Below are positions 38,797 to 46,028 of a stretch of DNA of 64,000 nucleotides, one piece after another. The position numbers were made by a program, and so were the translations under genes. Below the pieces are notes generated by a model. The model ran no database searches. It worked only from the letters and a program-made list of their open reading frames with translations, and was not told the origin of the DNA. The first letter of the stretch is position 1, and the number at the start of each line of letters is the position of its first letter. The DNA is from Chlorella sorokiniana (Eukaryota > Chlorophyta > Trebouxiophyceae > Chlorellales > Chlorellaceae), in assembly GCA_025917655.1 (NCBI GenBank), contig CP084619.1, forward strand, positions 4,321,001 through 4,385,000, written 5' to 3'.

Positions 38797-39069
38797 TTGG
38801 AAGCTCAATCGGTTGAAATGCACATGAAGCAGATAAAGCAGCAAAATGAATGCCGCTTTCAGGTCGCCCACAACCAGTCCATTGGTCTAATAGCGGCGCG
38901 ACCTCCAGTCCATTGGTCTAATAATGAAATTAAACGAGTATGCAAATGAATCAGATGGACATCAAAAGAGGGATTCCTACAGCAGTGGTCAATGCAAACT
39001 AAATGGGTGAGGAGGGTGTGCTGCCTGCCGCTTTGAAAGGCAGCACGGCTCGCAGCGCGGCCCCCGCCT

Positions 39070-41550
39070 TCAGCCACCGCTTGCGCGCGGCTGCTGGCCC
39101 AGCCTGGGCTCCCGCCGACAGCTGGCTGTTGCTGGGGCGCGCTGCACACCGTTTGGAGAGCTGAGTTCCCCAGCAGATCCGCCAGGTTGTGGGGATGCTC
39201 CGCCGTTTGCTGCGCCGCCACTTGCTCCAGGGTCTTCTGCCCCGCTAGTGGGCCCCCGCTGCGGCAAGCCATCCTGCTGAACTCTTGCCGCCGATGCTGC
39301 CGTGTCCATTGTCGTAGTTGCGAGCTTCGGCAGGCGGTTGCTCCGTTCGCAGGCTGTCTGCTGCGCCGGCGCCAGCTCGGCAAAGCACGCGTGGCAGATG
39401 CACTGGCTCTCCAGGCCGCAGCCGCCGCGGGGCCGTGGGGGCTCACCCGCGTGTGCTGCAGGCAGTACACTCGCTGACATAGCGTGCAGTAGTGGCTCTG
39501 CGCAGGGAGGGAGGCATCAACATGGTCGATCACGCCGCAGCTGAGGTTTTGTAAGCCGTGCTGGTGTGCCCACCAGCACGATGTGAGCTGGCGGACCCGC
39601 CGGCGAGCAAGCGCCGCCGTGTGCCGGCCCCTCCCCCTCACCTCCAGCCGCCGCCGCATGTCCCGCAGCCGGTCGAAGCGGCGGTGGCAGCCGGGCGGGC
39701 GCAGCGTGCGCCTCGCTGCACCGCCTGCTGCACCTCCTCGTCTGCCTGCTCCTCTGCCGCCTGGCGCGCTGCAGCAAGGCCTGCCTCGTCCCATCCAGCT
39801 GGCAGCTCAGTGCCCGTGCCGCCCATCTGGCCGCTTGCCTCCCCCGCCCCTGCAAGCAGCTGCAAGCTGCTGCTGCTGTGCAGCATGCCGCTGCTGCCGG
39901 CAGCGGGGCCCATCTGCAGCGCGCCGCTGCTCCCAGGCACCGCTGCAGCCTCGTCACCGCCGCCCAGAACAGCGCGGCTGCTGCCCGCCCTTTGGAGAGG
40001 AGCAGCAGCAGGCGCGCCGCCAGCGCCCGGCCTGCTGCTGCGCCTGGCTGGTGGCCGCTTCTCCGGCGGTGCTTCCTGTCGCTGGCGGGCCCCGCAGCCA
40101 GGGCAGCCGCGCGGCCAGCCAGCGGCAGAGCGCCAGCAGCACGCCTCCCACCCTGAGCTGGCTGGCTTTCAGCAGGATGGTGAGCGCCACCACCGCCGCG
40201 CTGCTCGCTGCCGACAGAGACCAGGCTACGCTGGGTGCGGCGCCGCCGCTGTGTGCATGCCCGCCCGCCGCGCTGGCGTTGCCTGCCGCCGCCACCGCAG
40301 CCAGCAGCGCCTGCACCTCGGCGGGGGCCAGCTGCATGGGCGCCGCAGGGCGCCGCGCAACAGCACGAACTTGGCAGGAGCCGCCGGAACCATCGTCGGT
40401 GACGGCGTGGGAGGAGTGTCCAAAGGCGCTCCAGGCGGTAAGGCGGTACCGGTAGCTTCCCTTTGCCGGTGGAAGGTCCACCCAGGCAGTATCCTCGTCA
40501 TCAGGCTCACCCGCCGGCTCCCACCGTCCCTCGGCCGCAGCGGGATCCCCGACCGCACCGTCCCCGCCAGCCCGCTGCTGCCGCTGCAGCACGTACTTGT
40601 GGAAGGGCGGGTGGCCGGGCTCGGCTGGGGGCTGCCAGCTGAGGCGCACCGCCGAGCGGTTGGCAGCAGCGCACCGCAGCTGCTGCGGCGGCTCGGGCAC
40701 CTTCCCCAGCCCCAGGATCAGCCGCTTGAGGCCGCGCAGGATCTGCAAGCACAGCAGCCGCCAGCGGGGGTGATCACAGCATAGGCAGCCGCAGTCAGCA
40801 GCAGGATGGCATGCCAACAGCGCGATGGCATGCCAACAGCGCGGTGGGACGCCAACAGCGCGGCGGGCAGAGCGCAAACGAGCAGCACCAGATGCATGTC
40901 AGCATGTATTAGCACCCACCTGCTGCTGGTGCAGCTTGCTGGTCACGCCCAGCTCTGCTGCCAGGCTGGCGCCGTCGTCGGCCGCGAGGAAGGGGAAGTC
41001 GAGGGCGGTGATGGCGGCAGCGCGGAAGGCGGCGGCGTGCTGGGGAAGATTGAGCCCGTGGCTGACCCAGTCTTCGACACGGTGGTCCTGCGAGAGTGTG
41101 GGTCAAAACCGCTGGTCAACCTTGGGCAGGGTGCGCAAAACGACTTGCAAAACAGTGGTCCTGGCCCTCAGCTTCCATAACAAGTGCCTGAGGGCAGCGG
41201 GGCCCGAGCGTCACCTGCAGCAGGGCCACGAGGTGGGCCGCAAGCTCGGCCTCGCTGACGGTGGCGCCGGCGTCGGGGCCGTCCAGGACAGCCCGGGAGG
41301 CTGCCTGGGCCGCTTGAGCGCTCCATCCCTCCTGTTTCAGGTCTAAACTGGCGGCTGCGAACTGTGCAGTCTCCAGCTCGTCCAATTGCCCGTCCGCATT
41401 TTTGTCGATATCGCGAAACAGCCGCTGCAATCCGGCTTGCTGATCTGCGAGACTGTGAGCTGGCTTGCCGTCCACCGGAAGAACGCAGGCCAGCCAGAGC
41501 AGCGCAAACAGGAACAAACGTCTCAGAAGGGGGTCATTACGACGGGGCAT
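39070..41550 (-). CDS. Type I membrane protein: luminal EF-hand, SAM and FN3 domains, one TM, cytosolic coil and FYVE-like zinc finger (STIM-like layout)
   Basis: Exon 1, 41550-41215: signal peptide (PLLRRLFLFALLWLACVLPV), then a canonical EF loop DIDKNADGQLDE and a degenerate second hand (LDGPDAGATVSEAELAAHL). Exon 2, 41087-40920, with the start of exon 3: a SAM domain, VEDWVSHGLNLPQHAAAFRA, LGVTSKLHQQQILRGLKRLI. Exon 3, from 40742: FN3 domain (VPEPPQQLRCAAANRSAVRL, then SYRYRLTAWSAFGHSSHA), a linker, and a hydrophobic span AWSLSAASSAAVVALTILL. Downstream is a Glu-rich helix (ARQAAEEQADEEVQQAVQRG). The last exon ends at 39070 and holds HYCTLCQRVYCLQHT and CGLESQCICHACFAEL, the second half of a FYVE-type finger. 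Exon borders between 40080 and 39650 are not resolved. One base seems missing at 39429-39432. Role inferred: ER calcium sensing coupled to a cytosolic module. Confidence 0.75.
40806..40864. repeat. Three tandem copies of a 19-20 bp unit
   Basis: Unit ATGGCATGCCAACAGCGCG, two perfect copies and a third with changes, in the intron between the SAM-coding exons of the EF-SAM gene. Confidence 0.9.
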
Positions 41551-41749: not shown

Positions 41750-43482
41750 ATGGACGTCGCTGTAATTGACATTGGCAGCCGGTTCCTCAGGGCGGGCAAG
41801 GCCGACCCTTTCCCAAACGATAAAGAGCCCTGGGTGGTGAGACTTATGCTGCAACCTACCTTGCTCCCCTGCAGCCTTGCGCCTTTCGTGGGGCCCCTCA
41901 GTTGTTGCGCCTGCCCTCCTTGTACCGCAGATCACTGCCACAGAGGCCACAGTTCGCGATCCCAGCGCTCCGCCGCCTGCCACGCCCGCCAGCAGCGGCG
42001 CCGCTGCCAACGGCGTTGCCGCAAGTGAAGCAGCCGGCCGGGTGGTGTGTCCTGTGGAGAAGGGCACGATTTCAGACTGGGATGCCTTGGAAGCATGCTT
42101 GGATCATGTGATCTACGACCGAGTGAGCAGGATCAGTGCATTGCTGCTGGCGGGCGCTGCTGCTGCTTTGCGCACCTGCTGTGCTGTCAGCACCCTCCCG
42201 TGCTGCTGTACCCGGAGCGCAAGCTGGCACAGCAGGCGCCCCTGGGCAGCACCCACCAGCGCCCTGCGAACTGCCAGTCATGCGGTGCCTGCTGCGCATG
42301 CTGCCTGCAGATTGGGTGGGCCCGCGGCCGCGAGGGCGGCGCACTGGTGGCCGAGCCCAACTTTCTGAGCCGCTGCGGCGCGAGCGCCTCTGCCAGCTCA
42401 TGTTTGAGGTGCTCAACCTGGCTGGCTACTACGCCGCCGACCAGGCGGTGCTGAGCCTGTACGCCATCGGGCGGCTCAGCGGCACAGTCGTCGACATCGG
42501 CTATGGCAAAACAGGTGGGCCTTGCGGCGGCTGCGGCTGCACCCGCATTCGTGGCACAGGCCGCGTTACTGCCTGGCCAAGCAAGTGCATTCGAAGGAGT
42601 CCTGCCTGCTTTGACGGCGTCCTTACGGCTGCCTGTCGCCTGCTGCCTCGCAGACATTGTGCCGGTGCTGGAAGGCCAGGCGCAGCCCTCCACCGCGCAG
42701 CGGCTGCCCTACGGCTGCCAGCAGCTGGCGCAGCAGCTGGAGAGCCTGCTGGCGGCTCGCGGCATCAGCCTTGGCGGCGGCAGCGGCGGCAGCGCAGCGG
42801 CGGCAGCGCGGCCTGCAAGCGCGCCACCCTTGGAGGGGCTGGCCCGCAGCATAGTGCGGGTGGCGGGCAGCGCGGAGGAGGCGGCGGCGGCGGCGGCGGA
42901 CCCCTCCACGCACACCCTGCCCGACGGCCAGACCATCAGCATCCAGCGGGAGGGGCTGCAGCTGGGGGAGGCCCTCGTGGATGCCTCGCTGCTGGGCCTG
43001 GATGTGGCGCCGCTGTCTGCAGCGGTGCACACAGCGGCGACGGCTCTGGGCGACAAGGACACACGCAAGGTGCGGCCGCAGGGAGCCACGCCGCACCTCC
43101 CAACCCTCTGCAGGGTTGTTCGCTGGCCCAGAAATCGCACAGCGGCCAGCGTGGAGGGTCCAAGCCAGCTCGCACTCACGCCCGTCCGCCCCCCCCCCCA
43201 CCCCCAGGCCTGGCTGGAAGGCCTGATGCTGTGCGGCGGCGGCAGCGCGCGCCCGGGCTCGGCCACCGCCTGCTGCGGGAGCTGCGCTCGCTGGCGGGAC
43301 AGCAGGTGGCGCCCGCGCTGTGCGCCGTGCCCGACTACCTGCCCGACGGGGCGCTGCGCCACGCGGCGTGGATGGGCGGCGCCGTGCTCGCCCGCGTCGC
43401 CTTCTCGCAGGCAGGCGGCTTCATCACAAAGGCGGACTACGAGGAGCAGGGGCCCGCCGCGGTGCTGCGCAAGTGTGTGTAG
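41750..43482 (+). CDS. ARP7: Actin-related protein 7 (nuclear, chromatin-remodelling type)
   Basis: Plant ARP7 is a nuclear actin-related protein of SWI/SNF-type complexes. Exons 41750-41836, 41931-42122, 42311-42514, 42654-43069, 43208-43482. Matches to ARP7 run the whole length: MDVAVIDIGSRFLRAGKADP (phosphate-1), CPVEKGTISDWDALEACLDH, RERLCQLMFEVLNLAGYYAA, DQAVLSLYAIGRLSGTVVDI, GYGKTDIVPVLEGQAQ (phosphate-2), HTLPDGQTISIQREGLQLGE, LEGLMLCGGGS, PDYLPDGALRHAAWMGGAVL, and the actin-like C-terminus KADYEEQGPAAVLRKCV. Gly/Ala-rich insertions of 10-25 residues replace loops. One T seems missing at 42362-42364 (giving EPNFSEPLRRE) and one G at 43255-43257. Confidence 0.92.
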
Positions 43483-43519
43483 CGCGCCGCTGCCAGCCAA
43501 CACCAGCTCTCTTACACCG

Positions 43520-44567: not shown

Positions 44568-46028
44568 AGTCTGCCTGGGCTGCTGTTAGCCCCTTCAACC
44601 AGAGCACGTAGTGTTGAGCCGCAGAGGCATGGCACCCAACCCTGCCAAAAGTAGTCCCCACTGCTAAGCCCCCCCAACCCACCCCAGTTGTGATACCAAA
44701 TGAGAAAACACACACACAGGCAGCGACAGGGGTGCAGCGGGCGTGCACTGGGCGTGCGAGGTGCTGTTGGAGTCGAACCAACTTAATCCCCTTGTGGAAC
44801 AGAGGGGCGCCTTCCGATCGGCCAAACACCAATCGCCAGGCTTGCGAGCACGCACAGCGCTGCCAGAGCACAGCATGCACAGCGCTGCAAAAACACAGCG
44901 GCGAGAGGATAGGCCCAGCCCTTCCCACCCCTCCCGTCCTGTGCCACAGCAAACCAGGACCATGCGCCCAACGGTCGCTTTCCGCGCCCTTGGCCACAAG
45001 GGCACGTGCTCACCTCCACCGCGCCCAGAGCTGCAAGTTGGTGCAGGATCCGGGCGCATGCAGGCACACAGCGGGCCGGCAGGAAGGCCAGGACGGGGAA
45101 GGGTGTCTGCCCTGCTGCAGTGGCTGCAGGGAAAGAGGGCGGCACGGCTGGGCAGCGCAATGCAGAAAGCGTGCATGTGCACTGCTGTCAAGGTGAGAGA
45201 GGGCGTTTGCTGCCTCGGCATGGTGTACGTGACTCTCTGCTGTCGCCCTCCCAGGCCCGTCTGCCGACACTGTTCAAACGACGGACAGCTGGTTGCTGGC
45301 GCCTCACCGGGCTCGGCGGCCGTTGGCAGCGAGGAGGCACTGCTGCTCACGTTGTCTGTGCAGCCTGCGGTCTGTAGAGCCTGGGAAAGGTCCCGGCAGA
45401 CTGTTGGGGTACAGGGCAACGTGAGGTTTCCGCGGTGGGGGAGTGGGGAAGGTGGGGACGCAGAGGCAACCAACGGTCGCTGGCAAGGCTGCGGCGGCAA
45501 CACCACTGCAAGCGTCAAGCCTATGGGCGCGCACCCGTAGAATACGAACGGTCTGGCATGCCTTCCTCGGCCTGGATGGGCCCGGCCTTGTGAGGAGGAG
45601 TCTGAACGATGTGCGGATGCATTGCGAGGCGGTGGAATTGAGGTGGCACAACGTGCGGAGGAGAGGCAGAGCGCGCTTGGAGAATGTGTGGCTCCAGTGG
45701 TGCAGGCGGTTTTAAAAAGGGGGCCGCATTGTGATTGTGTACCGGCAGCAGGTACCCCCGTTGAAGCATTAGACGCTCGATTTGCCTGCGAACTTCAATC
45801 CCTTTACTTTCAAACAGTTTGCAGTGAATCCAGGAAAAGTTCATAGACAACAAATCGCTCAATCGGAAGTTGTCTTCCGCAAGCTCATCCCCCGCGTTGA
45901 CCACGGCATTCGCTCCTGCATAACGATCATCACGGAGTTTCCAGTTGCCTGACGCAGCAGGTCTGCGGCATCGTGACCGGCGCACGAGAAACTTGGTGTC
46001 GCCTCTCCGTCTTCAGCCTGCGACAGCC
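44568..46028. other. Poorly resolved region upstream of the minus-strand gene
   Basis: Holds the exon-like pieces mentioned for the preceding entry, the tRNA-like sequence at 44760-44830, and an open minus-strand frame at 45985-45521 (NFRLSDLLSMNFSWIHCKLF, then VRRQIERLMLQRGYLLPV) in a stretch of lower GC. That frame has no ATG at its head and no family I know; it may be a true exon or read-through of a 5' UTR. Confidence 0.3.
44760..44830 (-). tRNA. tRNA-like sequence with intact A- and B-box, anticodon unclear
   Basis: Read on the minus strand, 71 bases give a 5' strand GGTGTT paired with AGCACC, a D-arm (GGCCGATCGGAAGGC, matching the polymerase III A box), a perfect T-arm (GTTGG TTCGACT CCAAC, with B box GGTTCGACTCC) and a stem CCCCT/AGGGG. 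The loop of that stem has ten bases instead of seven, so the anticodon cannot be read with confidence. Either a decayed tRNA, a tRNA-derived element, or a gene affected by base-calling errors. Confidence 0.4.

Follow-up and report, generated by a model that had tools for sequence, protein, structure and literature searches.

A putative STIM-like luminal calcium sensor with an FN3 domain and a FYVE-like finger in trebouxiophyte green algae

Animal STIM1 and STIM2 contain a signal peptide, a canonical and a degenerate EF-hand, a SAM domain, one transmembrane (TM) span and a basic C-terminus. In the available text of PMC11506743, a SAM domain together with a pair of EF-hands outside the cytosol is the STIM arrangement, and the available text of PMC7016017 puts the origin of STIM at metazoan accretion. 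Among groups that have Orai, those outside animals and choanoflagellates, early plants and green algae for instance, have no STIM1 homologue, and another protein of similar function is expected in them (PMC11085791). As far as the available portions of the following sources go, Chlamydomonas has a single Orai and apparently no STIM (PMC8318260), STIM and Orai are absent from nine oomycete genomes (PMC4820453), the existence of store-operated calcium entry (SOCE) in embryophytes is posed as a question (PMC11894410), and nothing alters this picture in PMC7935092 and PMC2894845. Our literature search, with subscription papers mostly outside its scope, found no algal STIM-like protein named in titles or abstract openings, and nothing combining 'STIM-like', Orai and algae, or sterile alpha motif, green algae, EF-hand and endoplasmic reticulum (ER). 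Here we describe a gene at positions 41550-38999, on the minus strand as are all of its features given below, in a 64,000-nucleotide stretch of the Chlorella sorokiniana genome (hereinafter the window; G000:C2:4321001-4385000, in a 38.8-Mb, 15-contig assembly). With a probability of about 0.5, the product of this gene is a trebouxiophyte sensor of luminal calcium that resembles STIM. A preliminary description of this DNA had noted that a STIM partner for the Orai-like channels of chlorophytes and early land plants has been considered missing, in agreement with PMC11085791 and with the available text of PMC8318260. Published surveys deny STIM to green algae, so this gene is a candidate for filling that gap.

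The encoded protein is predicted, from sequence and structural models, to be a type I single-pass membrane protein with a luminal EF-SAM unit, an FN3 domain, one TM span, a cytosolic finger and a basic tail. The layout proposed in the preliminary description (signal peptide, EF-hand, degenerate EF-hand, SAM, FN3, TM and Cys-rich finger) is real. The canonical EF-hand loop, DKNADGQLDELE (41371-41406; residues 49-60), keeps the ligands D1, N/D3, D5 and E12 in all five sequences that have the region, and is a putative luminal calcium-ligand EF-hand of the STIM type. It is followed by a putative degenerate, hidden EF-hand around DGPDAGATVSEAEL (41227-41322), which was placed by phmmer and hhalign alignment to the hidden EF-hand of STIM and which the EF-SAM model predicts as a helix-loop-helix, some of it with a predicted local distance difference test (pLDDT) score under 50. 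The preliminary description had staked its reading on the SAM segment scoring in a profile search, and Pfam SAM_2 indeed scores over its cut-off at residues 113-176, with the last SAM helix at ILRGLKRLILGLG (40704-40742, at the start of exon 3). SAM_2 is also matched in 4/4 members of alignment A1 and is over the cut-off in two relatives, P0028 and P0029.

The EF-hand part and the SAM domain are predicted to form one EF-SAM unit. In a phmmer search against all PDB chains, the C. elegans STIM EF-SAM is the top match (2.3e-4), in one stretch over residues 41-170. A profile of the algal EF-SAM (seven rows, two of them without EF-hand 1 and one of these without any EF-hand) matches both domains of three STIM EF-SAMs (3.8e-5, 5.8e-5 and 1.1e-3) among the best 60 of 109 matched chains; three EF-hand calcium-binding proteins outrank the STIMs, with the EF part alone matched. 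Profile-profile comparison of the algal EF-SAM with STIM gives a probability of 96.6 (E 5.8e-10, 130 columns). In the reverse search, with a STIM profile, the window protein and its Chlorella vulgaris relative P0002 score 9.5e-7 each and 9 of 30 algal proteins are matched in total, with none among 531 open reading frames of the window and 2000 shuffles at E 1.

The length of the SAM span equals that of 3/3 STIMs, while 20/20 other SAM chains are 3-5 residues shorter; this comparison covers only chains retrieved by the algal profile itself, and the 20 others represent about nine protein families. Cytosolic SAM proteins (Shank, SARM1, tankyrase and Eph receptors) are matched on the SAM part only, with a SAM shorter to that same extent. 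When the predicted EF-SAM structure, a model of low to middling confidence, is compared with known structures as the preliminary description had suggested, three STIM EF-SAMs (2k60, 2l5y and 6pw7) rank 1-3 over 123-140 residues. The expectation of a STIM-like luminal part is thus borne out by sequence, SAM length and predicted structure. The structural matches of the full-length model (A6; mean pLDDT 51.7, predicted template modelling score 0.30) are filled by FN3 entries, so that the EF-SAM is untouched by that comparison. Unlike animal STIM, the algal protein does not reach the Pfam EF-hand_STIM1 model (best 12 bits among the proteins, against a cut-off of 32.2); a genome search with the same model gave no match, and control genomes gave none either.

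The sequence predicts a signal peptide, a single TM span and a luminal N-terminus. The signal peptide, MPRRNDPLLRRLFLFALLWLACVLPVDG (41467-41550; residues 1-28), is predicted by hydropathy of up to 2.05 over residues 6-30, and the corresponding threshold is passed by P0003, P0023 and P0024, not by P0002. The TM span (40161-40229) has a hydropathy of 1.82 over residues 340-362 and a positive-inside flank. At this site, four of eight sequences pass the threshold (the window protein, P0003, P0015 and P0029) and P0002, P0023, P0024 and P0028 miss it; the structure model of P0002 has one long helix there (350-393). The net charge of the window protein is 0 in the 40 residues before the KASQL motif and +4 in the 40 residues from KASQL on. 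Across 14 sequences with the motif, the same segments carry 0 to +3 before it and +1 to +6 from it on, the net charge being greater after KASQL in 13 and equal in one. The spliced window protein has two sequons N-terminal of the TM span and none C-terminal of it. Among 15 sequences in which the TM span was placed (17 tried), sequons lie before the TM span in 12 and after it in 6, so the sequon argument for topology is weak.

The FN3 domain (40350-40700), which belongs to the FN3 fold, lies between SAM and TM, unlike the layout of animal STIM. The cytosolic finger, again unlike STIM, is FYVE-like and is encoded in two parts, 39642-39705 (CARPGCHRRFDRLRDMRRRLE in the Joint Genome Institute protein P0001) and 39372-39497 (SHYCTLCQRVYCLQHT...CGLESQCICHACF in P0001, with one indel near 39430). 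Its Cys/His columns are invariant in 6/6 rows of alignment A4, and its spacing (C-x2-C-x4-C-x2-H and C-x2-C) resembles that of a FYVE zinc finger. Unlike FYVE, it has C-x4-C as its first pair, stays under the cut-off of Pfam FYVE (PF01363; four of six finger rows match with E values no higher than 10, the lowest being 0.15) and lacks the FYVE motifs RRHHCR (in 6/6 rows) and WxxD. In a search of the finger against the PDB, the best match is at 0.097 and the FYVE domain of Vps27 at 0.77. The lipid-binding finger of the preliminary description is not supported: its spacing is FYVE-like, but it fails on the FYVE profile and the RRHHCR motif. Elsewhere in the genome, at L009 (G000:C1:3472496-3472855), a FYVE domain scores 50.4 bits, above the cut-off, in a search that does not list the finger described here. 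The basic C-terminal tail, ARKRWLKAGAALRAVLPFKAAG (39020-39095), follows a pattern that 11 of 29 proteins share, with a net charge of +3 to +8 and a maximal hydrophobic moment of 0.27-0.66; many of the 18 proteins without it are partial models. Neither SOAR (PF16533; no match in the proteins, nor in the genome at E 1) nor a long cytosolic coil was found, a further difference from animal STIM, and the coil of the preliminary description is not supported. The variable cytosolic linker contains a conserved MRRxGSSxxSL motif (e.g., P0002 at about 425-432, and P0011), which resembles a basophilic-kinase phosphorylation consensus.

Three protein searches returned 22, 24 and 4 matches, about 8000 candidates being scored in each of the two larger ones. 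Six matches carry an organism name, and all six come from one class, the trebouxiophyte green algae (the class was looked up for three of them), which include Chlorella; no relative beyond trebouxiophytes is among these six, in a search that needs shared 5-residue words. P0002 (670 residues) and P0003 (Micractinium tetrahymenae, 728 residues) show the whole order, signal peptide through finger. P0023 (Micractinium conductrix, 907 residues) has the same order and runs from the finger into an O-methyltransferase, the tail thus being missing, and P0024 has the same order with retained introns. The same domain order in other trebouxiophytes, which the preliminary description had proposed to look for, is thus kept in P0002, P0003 and P0023. 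Coccomyxa viridis P0015 and C. elongata P0028 start in the hidden EF-hand and contain SAM, FN3, TM, finger and tail, while Myrmecia bisecta P0029 starts at SAM and has the tail, with the finger missing. Over five rows, mean pairwise identity is 70% for SAM, 68% for the finger, 50% for FN3, 46-48% for the EF parts, 43% for the TM region, 28% for the cytosolic linker and 18% for the second linker.

The exons were derived from strand reading and open frames. Exon 1 (41215-41550) encodes the signal peptide, EF-hand 1 and the degenerate EF-hand 2, has a GT donor after 41215, and has its content joined to SAM in the gene models P0002, P0003 and P0023. Exon 2 (40920-41087) encodes the first 56 residues of SAM, exon 3 (39642-40742) runs from the SAM end to the start of the finger, and exon 4 (38999-39497) encodes finger, variable linker and basic tail, with the stop codon at 38999. 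GT/AG borders were checked for introns 1 and 2 and seen by eye for intron 3. P0001 starts at the last SAM helix and covers the rest of the gene, and tblastn places it on the window as identical peptide pieces with a shifting frame, broken four times. By-eye comparison locates an extra base near 40030 and a missing base near 39692, 39430 and 39137, the first two being the single-base indels of exon 3 that tblastn gives. All four sit in short GC-rich runs, which suggests residual assembly errors in the genome; they are probably such errors, with a strain difference as the alternative. These frame-breaking indels account for the trouble that the preliminary description had with the exons at 40080-39650.

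The preliminary description had also proposed a search for an Orai-like gene, and one is present in the same genome. Pfam Orai-1 (PF07856) matches at one place, locus L004 (G000:C3:2593540-2593788; 70.4 bits, one exon, no join), which its score over the Pfam cut-off assigns to the Orai family; the joined protein, with one join guessed, scores 124.5 bits over model positions 6-168 of 173. Its first TM aligns gap-free to that of fly Orai up to the pore Glu, with Gln in place of the selectivity-filter Glu and a Glu two residues further along. In Orai1 numbering, the residues aligned to G98 and V102 are kept and Asn stands where Orai1 has Arg91. The ion selectivity of the algal channel may differ. 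IP3 receptor profiles (PF08709 and PF01365) have no match in the genome; control genomes gave none either, so this null is uninformative.

The protein most likely works like the luminal sensor of STIM. When calcium in the store, most likely the ER, falls, the EF-hand would empty and the EF-SAM open, whereupon the SAM domains would cluster and gather the cytosolic tails. The basic tail, perhaps with the finger, would then hold the protein at plasma-membrane lipids, as the polybasic tail of STIM does, and there it might act on a partner, the obvious candidate being the Orai channel of the same genome. Such coupling would need something other than SOAR. An ER location, signalling to the cytosol and coupling to Orai are inferred.

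Several observations favour other readings. The EF part is weak in score, the hidden EF-hand contributing almost nothing to the STIM score, and domain order scarcely affects the joint EF-hand and SAM score, which weakens that score as proof of common descent. A signal peptide, FN3 and a single TM fit a surface protein too, the hydropathy and charge evidence fits any membrane of the secretory pathway, inspection by eye showed no ER retention signal, and Orai is reported more widely than this algal family. The protein could accordingly be a cell-surface or vacuolar receptor or adhesion protein with a structural EF-hand, its finger and tail docking to membrane or cytosolic partners and no store being sensed. 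We consider this rather unlikely, as a non-cytosolic SAM and EF-hand pair is the STIM arrangement in the available text of PMC11506743 and three STIM structures rank first for the EF-SAM model. Independent joining of an ordinary SAM and an ordinary EF-hand in algae, with no EF-SAM ancestor shared with animal STIM, was allowed for in the preliminary description; it would be compatible with calcium sensing and is possible though doubtful: it gains from the weak EF score and the indifference to order, from SAM_2 scores of 24.0-35.4 bits for algal SAMs, about as high as the 28.1-30.6 of STIM SAMs, and from the confinement of the six named relatives to one class. The SAM span shared with 3/3 STIMs and with none of the 20 other chains from roughly nine families, the shorter first loop (by eye) in the two other over-cut-off SAM genes of the genome, a similar EF-SAM spacing and the joint match of the predicted structure argue against it.

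The cytosolic side would also suit a tether between ER and plasma membrane (or endosome) that chiefly binds lipids through finger and basic tail. Luminal calcium would do no more than tune such a tether, and Orai would not be its partner. The finger is about as conserved as SAM, the basic tail is conserved and SOAR was not found; the FYVE lipid motif and the Pfam FYVE cut-off are not reached, however, and the P0029 model has a tail without a finger, and we regard a tether as unlikely. That EF-SAM exons and FN3/TM/finger exons come from different genes is very improbable. The gene is a predicted one and its frame in the window is broken, but a single open frame runs through the SAM end, FN3 and TM. 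P0002, P0003 and P0023 moreover preserve the order, and P0015 and P0028 each unite the hidden EF-hand, SAM, FN3, TM, finger and tail within a single model, these all being gene predictions. We therefore reject a gene-model artefact on the shared open frame and the recurrence of the order in other species' models.

An O-methyltransferase gene lies directly downstream (38692-36855, minus strand; Methyltransf_3 20.4 bits, cut-off 22), and fusion of the two genes in the Micractinium conductrix model P0023 indicates a conserved gene order. Just past the stop codon, two copies of the direct repeat ATTAGACCAATGGACTGG were seen by eye (38935-38875, minus strand). On the other side, a divergent actin-family gene (41750-43490, plus strand; Pfam Actin 4.3e-5 on one open reading frame, under the cut-off), probably an actin-related protein, begins ~200 bases from the start codon of the STIM-like gene. 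The sole tRNA that ARAGORN gives in the window (bacterial code setting) is a tRNA-Gly (TCC) at 44758-44831, minus strand, and an Rfam scan of the window gave no family at gathering score.

Combining an EF-SAM with FN3 and a FYVE-like finger, the trebouxiophyte membrane protein is a variant layout of an EF-SAM protein, and the genome described here encodes Orai as well. We do not class the protein as STIM because the SOAR and EF-hand_STIM1 profiles are not reached. A larger reading, distinctly tentative, is that the EF-SAM store sensor predates animals and choanoflagellates and that a true trebouxiophyte homologue controls Orai at ER-plasma membrane contacts through finger and basic tail in place of SOAR, so that SOCE would exist in the green lineage. 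If true, a conserved trebouxiophyte EF-SAM membrane protein would contradict the published view, and it offers a concrete gene for asking whether SOCE exists beyond animals and their closest relatives.
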